Of a stretch of 13,965 nt of DNA, positions 298 to 13,965 are shown piece after piece. Every line of letters begins with the position of its first letter. Position 1 is the first letter of the stretch. The position numbers and the translations under genes were made by a program. The stretch comes from Coriobacteriales bacterium (lineage in GTDB: Bacteria; Actinomycetota; Coriobacteriia; Coriobacteriales; UBA8131): contig JAIRQI010000147.1 of the NCBI GenBank assembly GCA_031256575.1, positions 1 through 13,965 of the forward strand, given 5' to 3'. The notes under the pieces were generated by a model. It saw only the letters and a list, made by a program, of their open reading frames with translations, had not been told where the DNA came from and did not search any database.

Positions 298-1134
298 TTA
301 GTTCACCTCCGCATATGAAGTATTCGCCAGTTCCTGCTTGGCAAAGCTCTCCAGGCCAATTACTACGAGCACGGTCAAGATACCTTCGACAATGGTCAAG
401 GGAATCTGGGTTGGAGCAAACACGCTGAGAAATTTCAAGGCACTGGCTAACACCCCGCCGACTTCGCTGGGGTAAGCCAAAGCCAACTGTAAACTGGTCA
501 CGCAATAGGTGAACAGGTCGCCCAACGAAACAGCAATACCCACGTTGACCAGCTTGTTGACCTTCAGTTTCTTGCCAATCGTGAACAGTAGCAAGGTAAA
601 CAAGGGCCCAGCAATAGCCATGCTGAAGGTGTTCGCCCCGAGTGAGGTCAACCCGCCATGGGCCAGCAGAATAGCCTGAAAAATCAGCACGATAATGCCC
701 AGTATCGAGGTAGCTGATACCCCAAATAATACTGTGGATAAACCCGTGCCTGTCATGTGGCTGCAGCTACCGGTCACTGAAGGTATCTTCAGTGAGGAGA
801 TGACAAAGATGAAGGCCCCGGACATCGCTAGAAGAATCAATTGACGACGGTCTTCCTGAACAATCTTACGTAGACGAATCACGCCCAGCACCAGAAACGG
901 GATGCAAACCGCTCCCCAGATTATGCAATGAACCAGTGGCAAGTAGCCTTCCATGATATGCATGGCGCTGGCTTGCAGCGGTAGAGCCAAGAATAAAGCA
1001 ACCATCACCGAGGACCAAAAGACCGACCGCTCTCGACGGCTCAAACCCTTTAACACACCCCAGGTTCTTGACCTGACCTCTTTGTCAGGTCGGACTTCTT
1101 CAACACGCTTGGGATTAACGTGCTTGAATCTCAT
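298..1134 (-). CDS. cbiM: Cobalt ECF transporter S component CbiM
   Basis: CbiM is the membrane substrate-capture subunit of the CbiMNQO cobalt importer. The 278-residue product has a long basic N-terminus and a signal-type hydrophobic stretch (residues about 38-57) ending ALPLQASA, followed at 58-63 by the hallmark MHIMEG. Cleavage after A57 would expose the Met-His N-terminus used for metal coordination in CbiM/NikM structures. Further family motifs are the segment with HMTGTGL and [23 protein letters not shown], with six or more membrane helices overall. The ATG at 1134 has GGAGGA seven bases upstream. It is the first gene after a cobalamin riboswitch and its terminator, so it is expected to be shut off when cobalamin is plentiful. 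A nickel-specific NikM is less likely given the riboswitch and the separate CbiN. Confidence 0.95.
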
Positions 1135-1271: not shown

Positions 1272-1297
1272 TCTATCTCTCGTAGATTCAATCGGTA

Positions 1298-1473
1298 CAA
1301 AAAGCAGGCAGTTCTTCTGGCTTAAGCTTCAACATCTACCCAGCCTTCCCAGTTTCCCAGTGGCTAGATGAGCAGACTTCACTTTACAGCGGCGGGACCG
1401 CGCGGGAATCACACCCGACTTCTCTTTTCACCGAGAGCCTCGCCAAATGACGGGCCTCGGCACCTGCTTTTTC
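1298..1473 (-). promoter_or_regulatory. Cobalamin riboswitch aptamer
   Basis: The minus strand carries the conserved order of the cobalamin aptamer. A 5' CAGGTGCC element comes first, then the core with GGGTGTGATTCC, GCGGTCCCGCCGCTGTAA, and near the 3' end a B12-box-like segment AGCCAGAAGAACTGCCTGC. The closing P1 helix is clear: GCAGG with flanking A residues at 1473-1463 pairs with CCTGC plus T residues at 1308-1299. It is followed by an antiterminator/terminator pair and then cbiM-cbiN. Cobalamin binding should favour termination and lower cobalt uptake. The B12 box departs slightly from the usual AGTCAGGAGACCTGCC pattern, but the whole aptamer is otherwise canonical. Confidence 0.93.
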
Positions 1474-1547
1474 GGCTCACAAACGGAGCCAGGCTATTTT
1501 GCTGTCAAAGTCCGACGCCAGTCAGCGAAAACTCTGACTGTTATGTA

Positions 1548-1624: not shown

Positions 1625-2662
1625 ATGAGTTCGAATGAAACAACAGAGTATTGGAACTCGGTAGCTGACTTACTGTCAAGCTCCAGGATGAGTACTCTAA
1701 GCTCCGAGCAATCAATCTATTGGGAGAAGGTCTTAACCGATATTATCCCCAAAGATCCGCCTTTGCGTATCTTGGATATCGGTACCGGCTCAGGCTTCTT
1801 GGCTGTCATGTTGTCCCGTTTGGGGCACGAGGTGGTCGGCATCGATATCTCACCGGTGATGATTCAGTGCGCCTATGAGACCGCTGCAGCTTTTGGCCAA
1901 CGTATCGAGTTTCGCATCATGGATAGCAGCGACTTGGATTTCGCCGACCAGAGCTTTGATGCGGTGGTCTGCTGCGAGCTGCTGTCACATCTGCCAGATG
2001 TGCGGTCAACACTTGAAGAAGCCAAGCGGGTATTGAAAAACGACGGCATTTTTGTGGTCTTTGACTGCAATGAACTGACCACCGGGCAACTGTTGGCTCG
2101 GGGTTTCTCGCACTGCCGTTACCGCGATGTGCAGGACCTGGATACCTTGAACCGGGGAGATACCCTGTATTGCCTGAGCGCCCGCAAGCCGACGCGCAAT
2201 GAGAACGAGGACCTGCCGCAGGTCTCACTGCTGCGGCGCTACATGCAAACTGCCAAGAAGCTGATTCAGCTCTACCAGAACTGGTGCAAGGGCACCGACC
2301 TGCCCTACCCGGAGTTCTCGGTGTTGAATTTCGTCTCCCGTCATGCCCGTGGCGCCCGCCCCTCGGATATCTCGACAGCCCTGGTGGTACCGCCGCAGAC
2401 CTTGACCCGCATATTGGCCGGCTTAGAAGAAGCCGGTTATCTAAGCCGGGAAATCAGCAGCCGCGACCGGCGCAGTTCGATGATTAGCCTGACAGATGAG
2501 GGTTACACCAAGATTCGTCCCCTGCAACTGGCTCTGCGAGAGATTGAAGAAAGCGCCCTGACCAGTTTTGACAGTGATGACCTGGCTGACATGAGCGTCT
2601 TTGACGACCGCCTCTTCCAGGCTTTGGAATCAGCCTTTAGCAGTGTTCCAAACTCAGAATGA
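1625..2662 (+). CDS. Fusion of a SAM-dependent methyltransferase domain with a MarR-family winged helix
   Basis: 345 residues. Residues about 30-165 form a class I (Rossmann) methyltransferase: motif I ILDIGTGSG at 49-57, acidic D74 at the end of strand beta-2 (VVGIDIS), D100 in IMDSSDLDF, and the post-motif FDAVVCCELLSHLPD. Residues about 203-325 form a MarR-like domain: a helical dimerisation segment LLRRYMQTAKKLIQLYQNW, a recognition helix region PSDISTALVVPPQTLTRILA, and a wing with SSRDRRSSMISLTDEG. AGGAGA lies just upstream of the ATG. It diverges from the cobalamin-riboswitch cbiMN transcript. A plausible reading is a regulator whose DNA binding responds to SAM/SAH or to a methyl-acceptor small molecule; neither the acceptor nor the target is visible. 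Domain calls are firm, function is not. The only clear plus-strand gene in the window. Confidence 0.88.
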   Translation: MSSNETTEYWNSVADLLSSSRMSTLSSEQSIYWEKVLTDIIPKDPPLRILDIGTGSGFLAVMLSRLGHEVVGIDISPVMIQCAYETAAAFGQRIEFRIMDSSDLDFADQSFDAVVCCELLSHLPDVRSTLEEAKRVLKNDGIFVVFDCNELTTGQLLARGFSHCRYRDVQDLDTLNRGDTLYCLSARKPTRNENEDLPQVSLLRRYMQTAKKLIQLYQNWCKGTDLPYPEFSVLNFVSRHARGARPSDISTALVVPPQTLTRILAGLEEAGYLSREISSRDRRSSMISLTDEGYTKIRPLQLALREIEESALTSFDSDDLADMSVFDDRLFQALESAFSSVPNSE

Positions 2663-4566: not shown

Positions 4567-7368
4567 TCAAGTTTTCTCTACCAAGCCGTACTTGACCTTG
4601 ATACGGTCCAGTTTTTCCAGCATCGGTTGAGCAGCGATAGCTAAAAATACCACCGTGGCAAAAGCATGCACCAAATCAAGGGGTATACCCTGGAGAATAG
4701 CTGCGAAAAACATCGGCAGTTTGGGGTCGGGGTTATAGGTGAACACGAAGCTGGAGTTCATCAGGCCGCCATAAATAACAAATGCTGCTAAACCGCCAAA
4801 GATACAGAGGGCAGTAGTGGAACGCAGCAACACCCCCTTCTTGAACAACACGCCGGCCAGTAGCCCAATCAACCCAAAGGCAAACATCTGCCAGGGTGTC
4901 CAAGGCCCCTGGCCAAAATACATGTTACTGACAAAGCCAGTCACTGCGCCAACTAAAAAGCCAGCTTCGCCGCCAAAGGCTACGGCCGAGATGATAACCA
5001 CAGCAACCACCGGCTTGAAATGAGGCAGCATAAAGAAGGCTGTTCGGCCAGCCACCCCGATGGCACAGAGCACGGCAATGATTACCAGCTCCCGGGCCTG
5101 TGGTTTGCGGCCTTCGAAGACCAGGATAAAGGGCAGCATGGTCTCGGTGATAATCATTATGGCAATAATGTTGTAGCTACGGTCATTTAAATAAAAGATA
5201 CCGAAATAGATAGTTAGGGGTATAGCCAAAAGAATCATCGCTGCAGCAGCGACGGTGCGTTTAGAGAGCTTGCGTTGACCGACCGGGGTCTGTACAGCCT
5301 GCCATTCTCGCTGGCCACGCCGCCAATTGACCGCCAGGATAGCAGTCACTACCTCTAGGGCTAAGGCTAGCATCAGCCCGCTATACAACCAGGCCTGAGC
5401 GGGATCGCTGGCAACAGTGATAGCTTCTTGGCCACCAATGATGAAGTCAGAGAAGCCATCCCAGTGCAAAGCGGTAAGAAAGACAGTCAGGCTAAAAGCC
5501 AACAGAGCCAAACCTAATACCAGCAGCCTGGGCCAGGTCATTTTCTTTGTCTTCGGCTTGGCTTTCAGCAAGTTCGGCTGCTCTTCTTCAAGACTGTAGT
5601 GGCCGCTTTCTAGGTCATCGTCTTCCAATTCTGGCAAAGCTGGCGGGGTGCCGCCGAGGGCGCTGATGATGTCGTTGGCAGTGACTGCTGTAGGCAGCAC
5701 CTGGCGAGCCATTCGATTGGCAGCCGATGTATAGAAGCTGTTGCCGCTGAAAAACTCCCGCGGTGGGTTCTCGGTAATGATGTGCCCGTCAAAAAACAGC
5801 GCGCAATGCCCGGCATGTTCGGCACAGAATTCCAGGTCATGGCTGACGATGATAACTGCTACCCCAGCTGCGGTCAGTTTTCGCAAGATGCCGGCAAAGA
5901 CCAACTTGAACTCAGCGTCCAGACCCTTGGTCGGCTCATCTAGAAGCAGGATACGTGGCTTCAAGAGTAAGACCTTAGCCAGAGCTGCTCGCTGTTGCTC
6001 ACCCCCCGAAAGGTCATAGGGGTGTGAGTCCAGCAGGTTCTCAAGGCGACAGAGAGTCACCATGTTCATCATTTGGGCGTTCTTCTCGGGCTTGGAGAGC
6101 TTGCTTTCGGAGAGAATCTCCAAGAGGTCCTCGCGAACAGTCTTAGCCACAAACAGGCTTTGTGGGTTTTGCGGCAAGACACCCAGAAGGTTTTGGAATA
6201 GCTGGTTGTTGGGTATTTTATTGATATCGGTACCCTCTACCAAGACTTTGCCGCGGTAGGGTTTCTGAAGCCCGGCAATCAAAGACAAGGTGGTGGTCTT
6301 GCCGGTGCCGTTGCCACCGAGGATTGTCGTCACCTCTCCCGCGTAGGCCTTAAACGACAGTCCTTTGACAATGTCTGGCAGCTCCTTCTCATACTTGAAC
6401 CAGACATCTTGCAGCTCGACTGCGGCAGGCCCGCTGACAACCTTTGTCTTGTCAGCTACAGTATTACCGGCTAACTGCTGGTTGCTGACCGTCTGGTCGT
6501 TCCATTCAGTGATGGCCTGGGAGCGGCCATTGCTGGCTATAGCAGTTAACCAATCTCGCCCATCGCGTACGGTAGTCGGGCATTCCAAGCTATTTGCGAC
6601 CTCTGCCCAGACCCGCATCGGCACCGGCATGGCATTGAACATGCCATGCTGTTCCAAGCGCAGGGCCTCCCCCACTTCGGACGGAGTACCAGAGCAGATA
6701 ATCCGGCCACTATCCATCACCACAGCCCGGTTAGCTAAAGGAAAAGCCTCTTCTAATCGATGTTCGGTGAGCAGTACGGTCACTCCCAACTCACGGTTGA
6801 TTTTGCCGATGGTGGCTAGAAAATCGGAAGCAGCAATCGGGTCAAGTTGCGAGGTAGGTTCGTCCAGAATCAGTAATGAAGGTTGCATGGCCATGATTGA
6901 AGCCAAAGCCAAGAGTTGTTTCTGGCCACCAGAAAGCTCGCTGACATCATTATAAAACCAGTTCTGGATGCCAAAGAAGCTAGCCATTTCGGCCACTCTG
7001 AGCCGGATTGTAGCAGTATCATAACCTAGGCTTTCTAAACCGAAAGCCAACTCATGCCAAACCTTATCGGTAACTATCTGGTTGTCGGGGTTCTGCATGA
7101 CAAAGCCGATGCGCATCGCCGCATCACGGTCACTTAAGCCCTTCAATGGTGTTCCCTCAAAAAAGATGTCACCGGAGATTGCACCATAGGGAGCCAGACT
7201 GGGTTTTAGTTGCCTGAGCAAGGTAGTCTTGCCACAGCCCGAGGGGCCACAGAGCACCACCATCTCACCTGGCTTGACCGCCAGGTCAATGTCAGCCAGC
7301 GCCGGGGCTTCCCGCTCGGGGTAGGTGAAGTTCAGACCTTCGATGCGGACGCTTGCAGTGTTCTCCAC
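4567..7368 (-). CDS. Fused ECF transporter: two ATPase domains plus an S-component-like membrane domain
   Basis: 933 residues. ATPase 1 (about 7-240): Walker A GPSGCGKTT 41-49, Q-loop MQNP 91-94, signature LSGGQ 145-149, Walker B LLILDEP 165-171, switch H203. ATPase 2 (about 316-545): Walker A GGNGTGKTT 351-359, LPQNP 398-402, LSGGEQQR 453-460, LLLDEPTKGLD 474-484, H510. After an acidic linker (580-605) a membrane region holds about two helices (613-680) and then helices from 705 on. Its ECF-S core has RELVIIAVLCAIGVAGR (759-775), FKPVVAVVII, FGGEAGFLVGA, SNMYFGQGPWTPWQM (814-828). Both ATPase sites look intact. Separate ECF systems encode A, A' and S apart, so this fusion is unusual. It starts at GTG inside ecfT (37-bp overlap, weak ribosome site), suggesting translational coupling. 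Substrate inferred as a corrinoid from the DUF4430 and barrel genes upstream; not proven. Confidence 0.9.
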   Translation of the reverse strand: MENTASVRIEGLNFTYPEREAPALADIDLAVKPGEMVVLCGPSGCGKTTLLRQLKPSLAPYGAISGDIFFEGTPLKGLSDRDAAMRIGFVMQNPDNQIVTDKVWHELAFGLESLGYDTATIRLRVAEMASFFGIQNWFYNDVSELSGGQKQLLALASIMAMQPSLLILDEPTSQLDPIAASDFLATIGKINRELGVTVLLTEHRLEEAFPLANRAVVMDSGRIICSGTPSEVGEALRLEQHGMFNAMPVPMRVWAEVANSLECPTTVRDGRDWLTAIASNGRSQAITEWNDQTVSNQQLAGNTVADKTKVVSGPAAVELQDVWFKYEKELPDIVKGLSFKAYAGEVTTILGGNGTGKTTTLSLIAGLQKPYRGKVLVEGTDINKIPNNQLFQNLLGVLPQNPQSLFVAKTVREDLLEILSESKLSKPEKNAQMMNMVTLCRLENLLDSHPYDLSGGEQQRAALAKVLLLKPRILLLDEPTKGLDAEFKLVFAGILRKLTAAGVAVIIVSHDLEFCAEHAGHCALFFDGHIITENPPREFFSGNSFYTSAANRMARQVLPTAVTANDIISALGGTPPALPELEDDDLESGHYSLEEEQPNLLKAKPKTKKMTWPRLLVLGLALLAFSLTVFLTALHWDGFSDFIIGGQEAITVASDPAQAWLYSGLMLALALEVVTAILAVNWRRGQREWQAVQTPVGQRKLSKRTVAAAAMILLAIPLTIYFGIFYLNDRSYNIIAIMIITETMLPFILVFEGRKPQARELVIIAVLCAIGVAGRTAFFMLPHFKPVVAVVIISAVAFGGEAGFLVGAVTGFVSNMYFGQGPWTPWQMFAFGLIGLLAGVLFKKGVLLRSTTALCIFGGLAAFVIYGGLMNSSFVFTYNPDPKLPMFFAAILQGIPLDLVHAFATVVFLAIAAQPMLEKLDRIKVKYGLVEKT

Positions 7369-8234
7369 GTTAAATCTACTTTCAGGTTGAGTAACATCGG
7401 CATCAAACTCAAAGCAAGGTAAGAGATGAAAACGATGACTTGAAATACGGTTAAAGGAGCGCTGGTGAGCACCGGGTAATACCAGAAGAGCAGCTGGCTA
7501 GTAAGTGAGCCGCTGATAAGCAAGCCGCCAGCAATCAGTAAAAAGAGCATCGCCCAGCGGTCACGCTTGTCAAAGCGAAAGATGCTGAAAGCGGAGCGCT
7601 TAGGCAGCCCATAACCACGGCTCTTCATGCTGTCTGCTGTATCGATGGCGTTCTCAAGCGACCAGGTGACCAGCATCGAGAGTATCTTGATACCGTGTTT
7701 GGCCCGCTGCAGCACACCGCCATTCGAGACATCCCGGCCCACACAACGCTGAGCGTTGGCAATAATCTTAATCTGCGCAGTAAACCGCGGCACGAAGCGT
7801 AGCGCCATTGACAGCACCAGAGACATAGCCGGGATAATGCGCCCGAACAGGTAGACGAATTTGTCACTGGTCATCACTTTGTTGAAACCACTGAACCAGG
7901 TAATCACAGTAATCAACATAAAAGCTGCGTGAACCCCGTAAACGATGGATTCCAGGGTCAGGGGGTTACCACTGGGCAGATATGTCAGGATGGTCACCCC
8001 CTGGTGTGAGAAAGCCGGGTTCAAGAGCATGGCAATCAGTAGTAGAGGCATCATGTACATCAGATTGAAACGGATAGCCTTGCGGCCGTTCAAGTAAATC
8101 GAGTAGCTCAAAGAACCGAGAAACGACATGGCCAGCAACACTGGATGCTGGATGAACATAGTCGACCCGATGACCAAGACAAAGAACAGCATAGCTACCG
8201 TCGGATGATAGCCAGACAAGGTGTCCTTATCCAC
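7332..8234 (-). CDS. ecfT: ECF transporter scaffold subunit EcfT
   Basis: 300 residues, a CbiQ/EcfT-family membrane protein that links the ATPases to the S component. Membrane helices lie at about 11-47, 56-75, 96-117, 133-148, 226-245 and 260-285. The two coupling-helix arginine motifs appear as AQR (161-163) within ANAQRCVGRD and SRG (205-207) within ADSMKSRGYG, the contacts that sit in the grooves of the two ATPases. The start is GTG at 8234, with AAGGAG five bases upstream. It follows the DUF4430 lipoprotein gene after 28 bases and overlaps the fused A-A-S gene, so all three are probably one transcript. It is distinct from the CbiQ expected in the cbiMN operon. Confidence 0.92.
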   Translation of the reverse strand: MDKDTLSGYHPTVAMLFFVLVIGSTMFIQHPVLLAMSFLGSLSYSIYLNGRKAIRFNLMYMMPLLLIAMLLNPAFSHQGVTILTYLPSGNPLTLESIVYGVHAAFMLITVITWFSGFNKVMTSDKFVYLFGRIIPAMSLVLSMALRFVPRFTAQIKIIANAQRCVGRDVSNGGVLQRAKHGIKILSMLVTWSLENAIDTADSMKSRGYGLPKRSAFSIFRFDKRDRWAMLFLLIAGGLLISGSLTSQLLFWYYPVLTSAPLTVFQVIVFISYLALSLMPMLLNLKVDLTWRTLQASASKV

Positions 8235-8262
8235 AGATGCTCCTTATACTTCCATCTATGGC

Positions 8263-9444
8263 TCAGCGTCCCATGGAGTCGCCGATGGCATAGAAGCCAC
8301 CGATGTCGCGGCCCAGGTCACAAGTGTAGATCCACTCAATGACGTCGCCATTCTGCAGGTGATAACGGCTGGCTCCATAATTCGGGAACCATCCGTTGAC
8401 CTTGTACATCCAACCGGAGTTCTCACCTACATCGAATTCATAGAGATTATGAATGCCCTGTACGTAGACCGAGTTGTAAATCGGAGTCCACTTGAAGGAC
8501 ATATGGATGCCCGAGCTGCGGCACTCCCGCTGCAGCACATCAAAGACATTCTCGCCCTCATAGAAGACACAGGTGCGGGTAATCATGATTGCCCCATCAC
8601 CTGGTACCTGGGAGACCTTGTTCGGCTCGCAGATAGCCATATTGTCCAAAATGGTGTCACAGCGAATCGACAGTGTACATGTGTAGCGCACAGCAGTATT
8701 GACTGTCACATCTTCCGGTTCGACCGGAGCCGGGCGGCCGGCTGGTGTCGGATCTGTCAGGTACTTGTCCTTCTCCCCGGTACTGCCAGTGCTGCCGCTG
8801 GCTCCGGCACCGGTATAGGTGTCATCCAACTCGACCAGCGGCTGATCTCCGCCAGTGTTCTGGTTGCTCTGGTCAGAGCCAGTGACTAAGGAGTTTCCCG
8901 GAGCCTCACTCTTGCCAACCAGGTAGAACAGACCCTTGAAGTCTTGCGGTATGTAGGTGATGATAGCGTTCGGGCTGTTCTCTAAAGCAGCAGTTGCCAA
9001 CAAGGTAGCCTTATTGCTATTCAAGTCAAAGGAGTACAACTCGACAGATGCCGCGTCCCAGATATCAGCTAGATATATGGATAAGGTCGGGTGGCCAGCC
9101 AGGGGGTTCTCAGTCTCAAAGCTCAACTCTTGCACATAGGCTGCTTTCAGGTAACTCTTGACCGTACTGCTATGGGAGCTACTGAAATTTACCTTCAGGT
9201 TCATGTCTTCGGGCTCTTCAATCAAACTTCCGATGAATAGCCACTGGTAGGTGATATCGTTGTTGTTGCCATTGAAGATACCAAAGTCGTCACTGTCCCT
9301 GATACCTTCGAAGACCGACTTGGCAATGATGCCGTTGGCTGGGATCTGCACTGTACGCTGGGCGCCACTGCTGCTGCTGCCACAACCGCTCAGGCAACTG
9401 CCCAGCATCATGACCACCAGCAGCCAGCTGATCAGTTTTCTCAT
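8263..9444 (-). CDS. Lipoprotein with C-terminal DUF4430 (transcobalamin-like) domain
   Basis: 393 residues from ATG 9444, chosen because AAAGGAG lies eight bases upstream and the product starts with a standard lipoprotein signal (MRKLISWLLVV... LSGC, lipidated C21). An ATG six codons earlier (9462) has a poorer site. Residues about 25-180 form a beta-rich domain I do not recognise; 185-245 is a Gly/Ser/Thr/Pro linker; about 250-382 is DUF4430, with GENVFDVL, YEFDVGENSGWMYKVNGW, NYGASRYHLQNGDVIEWIYT and CDLGRDIG. DUF4430 matches the C-terminal beta domain of animal transcobalamin/intrinsic factor. The mature protein would sit on the outer face of the membrane next to the ECF transporter, where it could hold or hand over a corrinoid. 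Ligand is inferred from the family and the neighbours. Confidence 0.87.
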   Translation of the reverse strand: MRKLISWLLVVMMLGSCLSGCGSSSSGAQRTVQIPANGIIAKSVFEGIRDSDDFGIFNGNNNDITYQWLFIGSLIEEPEDMNLKVNFSSSHSSTVKSYLKAAYVQELSFETENPLAGHPTLSIYLADIWDAASVELYSFDLNSNKATLLATAALENSPNAIITYIPQDFKGLFYLVGKSEAPGNSLVTGSDQSNQNTGGDQPLVELDDTYTGAGASGSTGSTGEKDKYLTDPTPAGRPAPVEPEDVTVNTAVRYTCTLSIRCDTILDNMAICEPNKVSQVPGDGAIMITRTCVFYEGENVFDVLQRECRSSGIHMSFKWTPIYNSVYVQGIHNLYEFDVGENSGWMYKVNGWFPNYGASRYHLQNGDVIEWIYTCDLGRDIGGFYAIGDSMGR

Positions 9445-9474
9445 GCTCGTTACTCCTTTCATGATGTTTCCCTT

Positions 9475-10227
9475 TCAATCCTTGACAATTATCATGGCGG
9501 GATAAGCCCGCAAGGTTTTCATAGAGGTAGCCAGACTGGAGCCATCTTCCGCGCCACCGATGGTGGCAAAGCAGGCATCAGCAACCGTGATATTTAGTTG
9601 ATTACCGGCAATTGCACTGTCTCGCAATCGAAAAACCAGGCGCACCACAATGTCGCTTTGGCCTTTGGCAAAGCCATCGGCTACATAAGCGTGGCTACCC
9701 CCGGAAATATCCAGGTACATGATGTTCACTACACCCCGCTGGTTAGATGCTGCGATATCAGCTACCCAGAGTGGAATGTCGTAGTGCATCTCACCATTGG
9801 CACTGACATTGCCTAGCGTCATCATCGTACCCTGCTTGAGTCCGACGAACTCTAGCTTGCTGCTGTCGAACTCCACCGACAGACTGGCTGCCGGATAATT
9901 ACCTTCCGGTAGCTCGGACAGCACAACATCGATAACAATCTCGTCCCGGCTAGCCGCTGAGACCGGCTGGGGAGACATCAAGGTGATAGAAGGAGTCGAA
10001 GCATCTCCAAAGGGGCCGCGCAGGTAGAATAGAGCTACCGCTAAGACAATCAGCAGAAAACCAGCTGCAAAAGTCAAAAAGCGGTTGCGCTTGCTATCCC
10101 AGAACTTCGGCTTTTTGTAAAGCCCGTAAGGGTCGTCGCTGGCAGTTTCACCTGCAGTGTCATCAACTGCCGTGACGCCAGTGTCTTGAGCATTGCTAAC
10201 GCTGTTATGCTCTTCGCTTGAACCCAT
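9475..10227 (-). CDS. Membrane-anchored cohesin-domain protein
   Basis: 250 residues from ATG 10227, with AAGGAA a few bases upstream; an in-frame GTG one codon earlier is too close. Residues 1-48 are hydrophilic and acidic (cytoplasmic), followed by basic KPKFWDSKRNR and one membrane helix at about 50-69 with no cleavage site, a type II anchor placing the C-terminus outside. Residues about 80-249 read as a cohesin: SPQPVSAASRDEIVIDVVLSELP, then AASLSVEFDSSKLEFVGLKQG (the typical yDpskLevv...G pattern), and DIVVRLVFRLRD near the end. Cohesins bind dockerins, and two dockerin proteins are encoded directly upstream. It would tether them to the membrane near the ECF importer. It ends 30 bases before the DUF4430 lipoprotein start. 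Confidence 0.8.
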   Translation of the reverse strand: MGSSEEHNSVSNAQDTGVTAVDDTAGETASDDPYGLYKKPKFWDSKRNRFLTFAAGFLLIVLAVALFYLRGPFGDASTPSITLMSPQPVSAASRDEIVIDVVLSELPEGNYPAASLSVEFDSSKLEFVGLKQGTMMTLGNVSANGEMHYDIPLWVADIAASNQRGVVNIMYLDISGGSHAYVADGFAKGQSDIVVRLVFRLRDSAIAGNQLNITVADACFATIGGAEDGSSLATSMKTLRAYPAMIIVKD

Positions 10228-10278
10228 CACTTTCCTTGACCTTTCTAGCTACCGAATTGACTGTAAATACTAGGTGAC

Positions 10279-10330
10279 AGAGCTTTGTTCCACCTAGAGG
10301 AGGGGTTGCCTCACAGTGGAACAAAGCTCT
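10279..10330 (-). repeat. Perfect 15-bp inverted repeat spanning the stop codon of the X-dockerin gene
   Basis: AGAGCTTTGTTCCAC (10279-10293) is exactly repeated in reverse complement at 10316-10330, with a 22-base loop that holds the stop codon (10294-10296) and a smaller GAGG/CCTC pairing. The right arm encodes C-terminal residues of the upstream protein. There is no T tract after it on either strand, so it is not a standard terminator; mRNA processing, stabilisation or partial attenuation before the cohesin gene is possible. Confidence 0.8.
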
Positions 10331-11571
10331 ACCTCCTTAGAGCTTGTTTGTTCAAGATCTTTCATTACCTCGAACTCCGTACCGGAGATGTAATGCTCAA
10401 TGATTGCCAAGACATCGTAGGTATCAATGCCTGCTCGACCATTAACGTTCATAGCCAAAATCTGACTATTTGATGTCACTGGCTTTCCGCGCAGCCAGAC
10501 AGCGGTGACTTCTAAGGCATCTTGGGCATTGACGATGCCGTTACCATCGGTATCACCAAAGACCAGCTGCTCGCTGGTATCGTCAGGATAAATGAGGTAG
10601 TTAGCTGAAGCTGAGATGTCTGCCGCTGGTTCCTCTACTGAGGTACATAGCAGATAGCTGTCTAGACCATGAAGACTGGTTAACTCAGGGGAGTAGAACA
10701 ACTTACTGTCTTTATAAGAGATTGACTGGCCGCTTTCCAAGCCGGAGACCAGTACAGCCACAACACTGAGATCTGCTGGAACCAAATCGGAATCGTTGTC
10801 GTAGCCAGACCCATAACTATACCCAGGTTCATTGTAGTAACCGAAGTCATTGTTGTAACCGAGCTCGCTATTATGTCTTGTTTCGCTGTTGTGCTCAGAA
10901 TCACCTACACAGTTAGGTTCGCCGCTAAGATAGAGCACATAAAAGGTGATGGTGATACCTGCTATATCACCTGGGATACCGCTAGAGCCTTCAGTTCTAA
11001 GATCATCACCTTCTGTTAACTCATTGGTGTCAGCTATCTCAACTTCGTCATAGCTGGAGCTAGCGTGGTTGCCAGCCTCAGTAGCTTGGTCGTTAACTGA
11101 TGAATCTTCTTCGCCAGAGGTATCTTGGCTATCGTCAGTGGTTGCTGTGTCTTCGTCAGTAGTTGCTGTGTCTACAGCTGTGGTGCTTGTACCTTCATCA
11201 GCAGTTTGGCCGTCGGTAGTTTTCAAAGGAGCTGGTAGGCTTGCCAGTAAGCCTGTTGTTTTATCAACCGTAGACCAGTGTTTGGTCTGAGCGAGTGCTG
11301 CAGCGGGAGTGCCAAAGACCAGGCAGAAAGCCAGAATGGATAATATGAGACAACCGAGCTTTTTTTTGATTGCGCCCTCTTGCAGTAAACTCAGGCTGCC
11401 AGATAGACCAGCAGCTGCATCTGAGAACCTGGCTCGCAACCTCTTGTAGCTGTTGCCGGAAGACGAAGGTTTCTTCAAGCCTCGGTCCAGGGCAAGATGA
11501 AACCTCCGTCTTTCGGTAACAGTCTGTCTTCTTGTGACACTGTTACCATCTCTGAAATCTTTGATGTGCAT
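10294..11571 (-). CDS. Exported X-module/dockerin protein with acidic linker and Tyr-rich repeats
   Basis: 425 residues. A long basic N-terminus leads to a hydrophobic stretch (72-94) ending PAAALA, a probable signal peptidase site after A94. Residues 115-200 form a Thr/Asp/Glu/Ser-rich linker with a DTATTDE/DTATTDD duplication. Residues 238-261 are four tandem hexapeptides starting GY. Residues about 266-335 form a beta-rich module (SISYKDSKLFYSPELTS), and 337-400 a type I dockerin: first calcium loop complete (D340, D342, N344, D351), second loop degenerate (N375, N377, R379, D386). Module plus dockerin match the C-terminus of the barrel protein encoded upstream. Start ATG 11571 follows GAGAGGATAA. 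Likely partner: the membrane-anchored cohesin made by the next gene. No enzymatic domain is seen; the role may be a linker or adaptor. Confidence 0.82.
   Translation of the reverse strand: MHIKDFRDGNSVTRRQTVTERRRFHLALDRGLKKPSSSGNSYKRLRARFSDAAAGLSGSLSLLQEGAIKKKLGCLILSILAFCLVFGTPAAALAQTKHWSTVDKTTGLLASLPAPLKTTDGQTADEGTSTTAVDTATTDEDTATTDDSQDTSGEEDSSVNDQATEAGNHASSSYDEVEIADTNELTEGDDLRTEGSSGIPGDIAGITITFYVLYLSGEPNCVGDSEHNSETRHNSELGYNNDFGYYNEPGYSYGSGYDNDSDLVPADLSVVAVLVSGLESGQSISYKDSKLFYSPELTSLHGLDSYLLCTSVEEPAADISASANYLIYPDDTSEQLVFGDTDGNGIVNAQDALEVTAVWLRGKPVTSNSQILAMNVNGRAGIDTYDVLAIIEHYISGTEFEVMKDLEQTSSKEVELCSTVRQPLL
10789..10860. repeat. Four tandem 18-bp units coding GY-hexapeptides
   Basis: Inside the X-dockerin gene four consecutive 18-bp units encode GYNNDF, GYYNEP, GYSYGS and GYDNDS. 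The DNA copies are diverged and the glycine-tyrosine pair is kept. A related HNSE motif occurs twice just before them. Confidence 0.75.
11133..11174. repeat. 21-bp tandem direct repeat in the acidic linker
   Basis: Two adjacent 21-bp copies (11133-11153, 11154-11174) differ at two positions and encode the DTATTD[ED] duplication of the linker. It is in frame, so copy-number change would alter linker length only. Confidence 0.75.
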
Positions 11572-11712
11572 TTATCCTCTCTCAATTGTTCTTCTAAGAA
11601 GCAATCAAATTGCTGTAGCTTTGGCTGATCTCAACCGGGACGATTACCTTCGAGCAGTAGCAGCTCTTTGAACTGGCGGCTCGTTTTTCTGGATTTTGCT
11701 AAATCGGGGGAT

Positions 11713-11740
11713 GGGAGCCGCTGGTAAGCAAGCGGCTCCC
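11713..11740 (-). repeat. Perfect 10-bp GC-rich hairpin between the barrel and X-dockerin genes
   Basis: GGGAGCCGCT (11713-11722) and AGCGGCTCCC (11731-11740) form a strong stem with an 8-base loop, starting 35 bases after the stop of the barrel gene. No T tract follows on the minus strand, so it is a leaky terminator or an RNA-stabilising/processing element. In the remaining 140 bases up to the next start (11572-11712) I see no convincing promoter. Confidence 0.75.
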
Positions 11741-11775
11741 GAACCCGAAAGGCAACCCAGAAATGCGGGAGTTAA

Positions 11776-13965
11776 CTACCTACTGAGAATCACAAATGGG
11801 GTATCTGAAACGTACTCCTCCATGATTGCTAGGGCATCAAAGGTATTGACGCGGGCATCTGAGGTCACATTCATGGTCAGTATCTGGTAGTTGTCAGTGA
11901 CTTCGGTCTTGCGTAGCCAAGCCGAGACCACATCTAACGCATCCTGGGCGTTGATAGTGCCATTACCGTCAGTGTCGCCGAACTTGACAGTCGTTGCCGA
12001 CCCGGAGCTGACACTGTAGTTATTCTTGTTATTGACCGAAGAATAAAGCTCATCAGTCGAGGTGAAAAGGATATAGGTGGCAATGCCGCTGTAGCTGGTC
12101 ATCTCTGGTGAGTAGATTAAAGCCGTGCTTTTGTAGCTGACCTTAATACCATTTGAGATACCGCTGATCGAGACAGCATAGGCCCGGGTACTATTGGAAA
12201 TCAAGTCGATACCGTCACCTGAGAATAACTCACGGGCAGCAACGCTGATTTCACCACTGGCAGCAAAGGCGATTGTGTCATAGGCTTTAGAGATGTCAAA
12301 GACATAGGCTGGCTTGTCTGAGGCCTGCTTCAAGGTCACCCCGCCGACAGTGATGCTGACACTGGGAGTCGTGCTGGAGTTGACAGTCTCTTTGACTTCC
12401 AAGCCAATCACCAAGAGGTCAGCGTTGAAGCTAGTCGCTGTGAAGTCCAAACCATCCAAGGTATAATCGGCATAGACGAAACGTAGCTTGTTGTTGGGTT
12501 TATCAGCTACTTCTTCTAAGAACCATTGGACCTCTTCAGCACCATTCAAAGACGATGAGACGGAGACATTGGTGACGTTGAACTCTTTAGGAATGTTAAC
12601 CAGACCGTCCAGCATCTGCCAGTCGCCACCCTCGCACTCCGGCCAGCCATCCAGCTTGATCATCACATTGAAGCAGGTGCCAACCATGCCGGAAATGCTG
12701 TTTGGTGCATCGACGATGATTGCAAAGGTATCCGAAGGCTCGGTCACTTCTCCGCCACCACCGGACCAGGGCTCGACATCGGTCATGTCATAGAGGTTGT
12801 TCATCTCATTGATGTAGCGCCAATAAGCCACCATGGCATAACCACCTTGGTCGGTTGCCATACCATCCAAGCCGGTACCAGGAGTATGGGAGAACCCACC
12901 ACCATTGACATAGAAAGACATGATGGCACTCATCGCACTGTTGCCATTCTTAACAAAGCGCGGGTCGTTCATCGGGTCAATACCCAGGGCACAAAGCGCT
13001 GTGATTACCTGAGCACAACTCTCTGAGTTTATTGAACCCCAGGAATAGAAACCTCCGTCACTGCGCTGCAGAGTCGATAACGCGGTCAAGCCACGCTCGA
13101 TAGCTGCTGCTACAACAGGGTCATCCTTGTACCTGGCTAGAGCTTGGATAGCCATACCGGTGATGTCGGGATCAGGCTCATTGCCAGACATTGCCCAACC
13201 ACCAGCATCAGCAGTGCCTCGTTTAATTTCTCTGTTTAGGATGTAATCGATCATCCACTGCCGGGTGGCTTGATTATCAGGGTTCGGCAGGTAGCCGGTC
13301 ATCTCCGCAGTATCGACGATACTAGGAATCTCGTAGTTACGGGTATCTAAGGCAATCAGTGCAAAGATTGGGCCATTGATACCTTGACGAGTTATTGCAC
13401 TACGGCTAGACAACCAGGCTGTCAGGTCATAACCACCGACATCTGTAGCATCGATACCCAGCGAAGAGAGTCCCAGTATCAAGCGGGAGTATTCTGTCTT
13501 CTTATTGTATGAGTCTGGTAGGATGCCGTGGCCGGTGATAAATTCGTCGTAATCAGCCTCTGGATCACCGTTAACCACGATATTGACAACTCGATCGTAG
13601 TATCCCCGATAATACCCTTCTGGCACAGCAAAACCACCGCGAGCTAGAGTTAGGACTGTCCACTCTCCAGCACTGGTGCCATAACCAGGTTCAGGTACTG
13701 TCCTGACCATATAAGCAAAGGTAGCGGCCATTTGCGCACTGATATCCAATGTAGTCGTAGGCCCAGAGGGGTTCAGAGCCTTGTCTAATGTGCTTCTGGC
13801 ACTGTCAACCTCTGCTTGGGTAGCTGTCAGGTTGGTCAGAGCTGCATAGGCGGTCTGATAAGCTGCAGATACTGCTGGATCGGCAAGAATCTGAGTCTTA
13901 TTGGTTGATGTGTTGATTTCAGCGACCATAGCAGTCAAGGCATCTTTGTTGGCTCCCGGGTAAAA
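11776..13965 (-). CDS. Multidomain surface protein: transcobalamin-like alpha/alpha barrel, cohesin-like domain, X module, dockerin (5' end outside window)
   Basis: The frame is open to the right edge (729 residues visible), so the true start and any signal peptide lie outside. Numbering from the TTG codon at 13938: residues before about 58 look like a FIVAR-type helical module. About 62-390 form a helical barrel with prenyltransferase/squalene-cyclase-type repeats: GGWAMSGNEPDPDITGMAIQALARY, QRSDGGFYSWGSINSESCAQ, GGGFSHT. This is the fold of the transcobalamin/intrinsic factor alpha domain; no catalytic DXDD-type motif was seen. After a GGGG linker, 403-560 is a beta-rich, cohesin-like domain (tentative). 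About 583-645 is the X module shared with the next gene, and 652-714 a dockerin with loop 1 intact (D655, D657, N659, D666) and loop 2 degenerate (N690, T692, D694, D701). Inferred role: corrinoid capture outside the cell. Confidence 0.85.
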   Translation of the reverse strand, partial: FYPGANKDALTAMVAEINTSTNKTQILADPAVSAAYQTAYAALTNLTATQAEVDSARSTLDKALNPSGPTTTLDISAQMAATFAYMVRTVPEPGYGTSAGEWTVLTLARGGFAVPEGYYRGYYDRVVNIVVNGDPEADYDEFITGHGILPDSYNKKTEYSRLILGLSSLGIDATDVGGYDLTAWLSSRSAITRQGINGPIFALIALDTRNYEIPSIVDTAEMTGYLPNPDNQATRQWMIDYILNREIKRGTADAGGWAMSGNEPDPDITGMAIQALARYKDDPVVAAAIERGLTALSTLQRSDGGFYSWGSINSESCAQVITALCALGIDPMNDPRFVKNGNSAMSAIMSFYVNGGGFSHTPGTGLDGMATDQGGYAMVAYWRYINEMNNLYDMTDVEPWSGGGGEVTEPSDTFAIIVDAPNSISGMVGTCFNVMIKLDGWPECEGGDWQMLDGLVNIPKEFNVTNVSVSSSLNGAEEVQWFLEEVADKPNNKLRFVYADYTLDGLDFTATSFNADLLVIGLEVKETVNSSTTPSVSITVGGVTLKQASDKPAYVFDISKAYDTIAFAASGEISVAARELFSGDGIDLISNSTRAYAVSISGISNGIKVSYKSTALIYSPEMTSYSGIATYILFTSTDELYSSVNNKNNYSVSSGSATTVKFGDTDGNGTINAQDALDVVSAWLRKTEVTDNYQILTMNVTSDARVNTFDALAIMEEYVSDTPFVILSR

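Follow-up and report, generated by a model that had tools for sequence, protein, structure and literature searches.

Contig JAIRQI010000147.1 of a Coriobacteriales bacterium (assembly GCA_031256575.1), a stretch of 13,965 nucleotides referred to here as the window, carries a cluster of six genes that can be read as cell-surface machinery with which the bacterium would scavenge cobamides or other corrinoids. It would rely on a dockerin-tethered receptor, a lipoprotein, and an importer of the energy-coupling factor (ECF) type with a CbrT-like S component; the probability of this reading is put at roughly three in four (0.77). In the proposed mechanism, a secreted protein would grip the corrinoid between a beta-grasp domain (DUF4430, or SLBB) and an alpha/alpha barrel. 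Its C-terminal dockerin would clip it to one membrane cohesin encoded by the neighbouring gene, as strict gene linkage suggests. The ligand may then be passed to a DUF4430 lipoprotein at the membrane, which would deliver it to the S component. The latter forms one chain with two ECF ATPases and, judging by homology, works with EcfT. A cobalamin riboswitch precedes the operon in relatives and would control it, while the 5′ end of the window copy lies beyond the contig end.

Organization of the Gene Cluster and Its Relatives

The six genes run on one strand from position 13965 down to 4567, an arrangement that an earlier note on this DNA had recognized correctly, together with the fused importer and the lack of glycoside hydrolases, none of which is among the Pfam matches listed for the nine window proteins. 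They are given below in gene order; domain limits in the barrel protein are transferred from its full-length counterpart, P0121.

11776..13965, minus strand: predicted secreted corrinoid-capture protein (barrel and dockerin), 5′-truncated by the contig end
13765-13965, minus strand: FIVAR-like linker of the barrel protein
about 12763-13764, minus strand: alpha/alpha barrel
about 12238-12735, minus strand: cohesin-like domain of the barrel protein
11779-12237, minus strand: X-like module and type I dockerin of the barrel protein (dockerin 11821-11979)
10294..11571, minus strand: second dockerin protein, X-like module and dockerin (dockerin 10396-10557)
9475..10230, minus strand: membrane-anchored cohesin with one cohesin domain (about 9478-9963), where the barrel protein is predicted to dock
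8263..9462, minus strand: DUF4430 lipoprotein
7332..8234, minus strand: EcfT-type transmembrane coupling protein
4567..7368, minus strand: A-A-S ECF fusion, with two ATPase domains, a transmembrane region and a CbrT-like vitamin B12 S component (about 4594-5151)

The family was surveyed in 76 related loci obtained from a scan of species genomes; these stem from the best 80 of at least 577 confirmed relatives and lean towards the nearest ones. The barrel protein, a DUF4430 protein, EcfT and the A-A-S fusion occur together in 48 of the 76 loci, the other 28 including many short contigs. Two layouts can be distinguished. Loci of the first layout encode a barrel protein whose C-terminal end is formed by an X-like module and a dockerin; directly after it comes a gene for a small cohesin that has a single hydrophobic segment at its N-terminus. 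Loci of the second have neither a dockerin nor a cohesin gene, and their barrel protein is usually larger and in many cases carries extra DUF4430 and barrel domains. Nearby distribution is patchy: 14 of 60 taxonomically near genomes (the source genome included) match the barrel protein, the match reaches the dockerin in the source genome only, and the barrel is absent from all three same-genus genomes compared. Transfer between lineages is a possible origin of this pattern.

The Cohesin-Dockerin Tether

With dockerin and cohesin profiles that were themselves derived from family members, both modules were found in 32 of the 76 loci, a dockerin only in one, a cohesin only in none, and neither in 43. 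The cohesin is the next gene, and membrane-anchored, in 32 of the 33 dockerin-type loci; at the sole exception (L059), the contig stops 69 bases past the open reading frame (ORF). With the general Pfam models at E ≤ 0.01, 27 of the 33 dockerin-type barrel proteins match PF00404; of 33 cohesin proteins (32 from the loci and that of the window), 32 match PF00963. SLH domains are present in 20 of the 25 barrel proteins from dockerin-less full-operon loci (E ≤ 0.001; one barrel ORF per locus, the other 18 dockerin-less loci lying outside this count), and no dockerin is listed for any of these 25 at the same threshold.

The pair is called a tether mainly because anchor types swap in otherwise alike operons. 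Gene linkage (32/33 versus 0/43) and the exchange with SLH anchors thus support the proposal, already made in the earlier note, that the cohesin-dockerin pair tethers the barrel protein to the membrane; it would do the job that SLH or other cell-wall anchors do in sister operons. More broadly, it is likely that a dockerin with its own membrane cohesin constitutes an established, exchangeable mount for vitamin receptors, used instead of SLH or cell-wall anchors in upwards of 30 genomes, the majority from Clostridia, and possibly forming chains.

In the window, the cohesin has a hydrophobic segment at its N-terminus, reaches 22.8 bits with PF00963 (cut-off 24.1), and is related to the Acetivibrio scaffoldin cohesins 5nrm and 5nrk (E about 9e-4). 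The dockerins of the barrel protein and of the second dockerin protein score 21.0 and 21.7 bits with PF00404 as proteins, below the 22.9 cut-off, and 24.9 and 26.0 bits, above it, in a six-frame search of the genome.

Rather than a simple tether, the modules could build chains: each barrel protein would hold, with its own cohesin-like domain, the dockerin of the following copy, and the chain as a whole would be anchored on the membrane cohesin. In two of nine proteins scanned, P0180 (E = 2.2e-6, above cut-off) and P0125 (E = 0.0012, below), PF00963 matches the stretch separating barrel from dockerin, and the model is found in 3 of the 33 dockerin-type proteins (E ≤ 0.01). Cohesin structures also appear among the Foldseek matches to the whole model, their position within it not being given. 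Nevertheless, most members fall short of the cohesin model and such domains may be mere spacers, so chains are considered rather unlikely.

The Receptor Chain

According to the earlier note, the two halves of a transcobalamin-like grip are borne by two proteins, the barrel by one and the beta domain by the lipoprotein. This is very probably an artefact of the contig end. The barrel ORF is open through the last base of the contig, and a protein search yielded P0121, a full-length counterpart of 923 amino acids that is identical at 712 of 729 positions (98%). Residue 1 of the window protein aligns with residue 195 of P0121, which is 194 residues longer N-terminally; this extension consists of a signal-peptide-like start followed by a DUF4430-like domain. 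The N-terminal domain scores 18.2 bits in P0121; the aligned relatives reach higher values, 41.9 (P0132), 44.1 (P0155) and 34.7 bits (P0190). Since the window ORF is truncated and so close a homologue carries this domain, the barrel and a DUF4430-like beta domain are very probably on one chain, the beta domain coming first.

Among the 33 dockerin-type loci, the N-terminal DUF4430 profile matches the barrel ORF in 21. Three others (L063, L066, L077) begin at a contig end, and in seven (L054, L055, L058-L062) the N-terminus is unrecognized by the profile. In the relatives L074 and L080, the DUF4430 domain and the barrel-dockerin part are on separate ORFs, a real split. These two loci, together with the clear transcobalamin-type beta domain of the lipoprotein, would fit a split transcobalamin whose barrel lacks a beta domain of its own and grips the ligand jointly with the lipoprotein. 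Given the unsplit P0121 and the 21 in-chain matches, such an arrangement is rejected for the source species, and is regarded as very unlikely overall.

The alpha/alpha barrel described in the earlier note is recovered as a toroid in the predicted fold of P0121, with squalene-hopene cyclase as the top fold match; the window protein itself matches SQHop_cyclase_C weakly (23.0 bits, cut-off 26.1). A profile of 17 barrel proteins matched cyclases and dockerins in the PDB, and not transcobalamin. The fold match and the weak SQHop_cyclase_C match are what could suggest a surface-held enzyme (a terpene cyclase, prenyltransferase-like or corrinoid-modifying), an idea given very little credence.

The lipoprotein has a lipobox-like LSGC motif visible in its sequence and matches DUF4430 (PF14478) with E = 1.6e-18. 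It comprises an all-beta N-terminal domain (residues 37-186) and a transcobalamin-like beta domain (residues 236-384, about 8311-8757), a beta-grasp domain of the transcobalamin clade. The link to transcobalamin came from the fold alone; PDB sequence searches with the lipoprotein, singly or as a profile, returned no convincing relative. It is a second DUF4430 protein, beside the probable one in the barrel chain.

Ligand and Importer

Whole loci (48 with the full operon, plus L042) were scanned directly with Rfam, and a riboswitch was counted when it shared the strand of the operon and stood under 1.2 kb ahead of its first ORF. A cobalamin riboswitch precedes the operon in 41 of these 49 loci (18/24 of the dockerin type, 23/25 of the others), against a chance expectation of about 0.02 loci, calculated from the density of riboswitch matches in 45 of these genomes (146 in 181 Mb). 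The family is RF00174, with RF01482 in L033, L035 and L036. Regarding the remaining loci, no cobalamin riboswitch was found by the Rfam scan in L038, L078 and L080; it is too far to count in L105 (2.3 kb) and L061 (1.3 kb, a nearer 36.5-bit match appearing in a separate genome scan only); and L046, L066 and L077 begin at contig ends. These direct scans replace a count derived from coordinates (38/45), which was discarded as coordinates may coincide by accident, for example for a second candidate in L034. More than one cobalamin riboswitch can stand before one operon: L057 and L090 have two each, while in L061 one was seen in the direct scan and one in the separate genome scan only.

The two other DUF4430 genes of the source genome also lie behind cobalamin riboswitch matches, of 46.3 bits on contig C143 and 31.4 bits on C158 (cut-off 31.5). 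The first (L112, 2646-5846) encodes a DUF4430 protein of at least 1067 amino acids that runs off the contig, with no Pfam barrel in the available part. The second (L113) encodes a 153-residue DUF4430 protein, followed by an EcfT-like gene (by reading; no Pfam match) and an ECF-type ATPase (by reading).

As for the importer, the Pfam matches of the A-A-S fusion are two ABC_tran stretches followed by an ECF S domain. The window EcfT protein has no Pfam match, and PF02361 (CbiQ) is detected in two of four EcfT orthologues from related loci; the operon combines ECF-like ATPases with a CbiQ-like membrane protein. The best solved relative of the S domain is 6FNP (E = 8.3e-10), the next S component being 4hzu (E = 0.014). 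According to the corresponding paper (PMC5997447), 6FNP was deposited for ECF-CbrT, a mover of cobalamin and cobinamide.

Corrinoid uptake, the theme put forward in the earlier note, is thus supported by the riboswitches of relatives, the CbrT-like S component and the transcobalamin-like beta domain. A different ligand, another cofactor or a metal complex such as haem, flavin or free cobalt, could be suggested by the riboflavin-type name that Pfam ranks highest for the S domain, and by the ATPases, which exceed the CbiO cut-off. As the same domain best matches CbrT, a cobalamin riboswitch precedes most of the operons and the beta domain of the lipoprotein is of the transcobalamin type, this is highly improbable.

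Evidence Weighing Against Corrinoid Scavenging

Several observations count against this reading. The cohesin and dockerin scores of the window proteins are marginal. The second dockerin protein, in which a signal-peptide or transmembrane-like segment and a long acidic low-complexity stretch can be read, has no counterpart: a dockerin module on a barrel-less ORF was found in 0 of the 76 loci, and the protein was rejected as a conserved core member. Of the six genes whose co-occurrence across genomes the earlier note proposed to check, the barrel, DUF4430, EcfT and A-A-S genes were found together in 48 loci, the cohesin only alongside a dockerin, and this one in none. Its X-like and dockerin part shares about 44% identity with the corresponding part of the barrel protein; the second dockerin protein is probably a lineage-specific duplication and perhaps competes for the cohesin or diverts it as a decoy.

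The source genome (182 contigs, 64% complete) also holds a de novo corrin block (L120, contig C182), with cbiL, cbiF, cbiG and hemC, and fusions of hemA with cbiH, of cbiJ with the cysG N-terminal domain, and of cobA with a hemD-like domain. On contig C32, behind another cobalamin riboswitch, there are cobU-, cbiB- and cobD-like genes, the cobU and cobD models scoring below their cut-offs; CbiD was not found in this incomplete assembly. Hosts of such systems are usually without key enzymes of the B12 pathway, as stated in the accessible text of Burroughs et al. 2007 (PMC1796856). Given the corrin genes present, scavenging would therefore supplement synthesis or remodelling, and replace neither.

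Relation to Known Systems

To our knowledge, B12 capture at Gram-positive surfaces is little characterized. The SLBB domain is taken here to be the DUF4430 domain, given their common match to the transcobalamin beta domain. The core of the system was foreseen. The accessible text of Burroughs et al. 2007 (PMC1796856) describes secreted bacterial fusions of toroid and SLBB domains in either order, FIVAR fusions, and a second SLBB protein with CbiO/CbiQ-like genes within one operon; it proposes B12 scavenging and surface complexes, as well as the descent of animal transcobalamin from these bacterial proteins. For attachment, a Gram-positive anchor motif and sugar-binding domains are named there, and the words dockerin and SLH were absent from that text in a term search. 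The present operons share the toroid with SLBB, FIVAR, the second SLBB protein and the ECF-like genes, and differ in that attachment is by cohesin and dockerin, with a riboswitch and a CbrT-type S component tied in. The earlier note's statement that no such system had been described thus fails for the core and seems to stand for the tether: the joining of cohesin-dockerin with B12 uptake was not found in the open-licence PMC papers searched. What seems new is this tether and the further evidence on the ligand.

ECF-CbrT of Lactobacillus delbrueckii shares the ECF module and a sequence-related S component; here, by contrast, A-A-S is a single chain, with extracellular DUF4430 proteins ahead of it, and the main text on ECF-CbrT (PMC5997447) contains no use of "lipoprotein". 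In animal transcobalamin, intrinsic factor and haptocorrin, barrel and beta domain in one chain sandwich one B12. P0121 has both domains in one chain (the window copy being cut off) and would hold its ligand in a similar way. The differences are the reversed order with the beta domain first, the surface attachment, the second beta-domain lipoprotein, and the additional cohesin-like, X-like and dockerin modules.

The cohesin-dockerin joint is best known from cellulose-digesting complexes. With these the system shares a type I-like dockerin (PF00404) and a cohesin akin to Acetivibrio scaffoldin cohesins, whereas here a single cohesin on one membrane protein takes the place of a scaffoldin array and the cargo is a predicted vitamin receptor; neither a cohesin array nor listed glycoside hydrolases, which together mark a cellulosome, were found. 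The assembly contains two cohesin and four dockerin matches in total. Another cohesin protein (L008, contig C113), with a transmembrane-like N-terminus by reading, adjoins a metallophosphoesterase-like protein whose C-terminus looks dockerin-like by eye, although Pfam lists no dockerin. Two further large dockerin proteins (L001 on C85, L002 on C56) have PF00404 above cut-off; the stretches examined show no cohesin beside them.

Neighbouring Genes

The rest of the window contains the following features, together with an SsuA/NMT1-like binding protein.

298-1134, minus strand: CbiM, cobalt ECF S component, on a neighbouring transcript and linked to the cluster by theme only
1290-1482, minus strand: cobalamin riboswitch, facing cbiM and not the six-gene cluster
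1625-2662, plus strand: methyltransferase fused to a MarR-type winged helix

A cobalamin riboswitch and a cobalt importer are thus present nearby, as the earlier note had it, but this element precedes cbiM; it was rejected as regulator of the cluster, and support was taken from the relatives instead. The best NCBIfam match of the methyltransferase fusion is the corrinoid protein-associated methyltransferase CpaM (77.5 bits, cut-off 180).

Implications

If this reading is right, the joint of the cellulosome has been put to work in nutrient import, which would provide a case, with a likely cargo, of cohesin-dockerin contact that does not serve polysaccharide breakdown. The operon offers a complete testable route, from receptor and tether to lipoprotein, S component and motor, with riboswitch control in relatives, and because dockerin and SLH anchors replace one another, sister operons can be compared to probe what the tether does.
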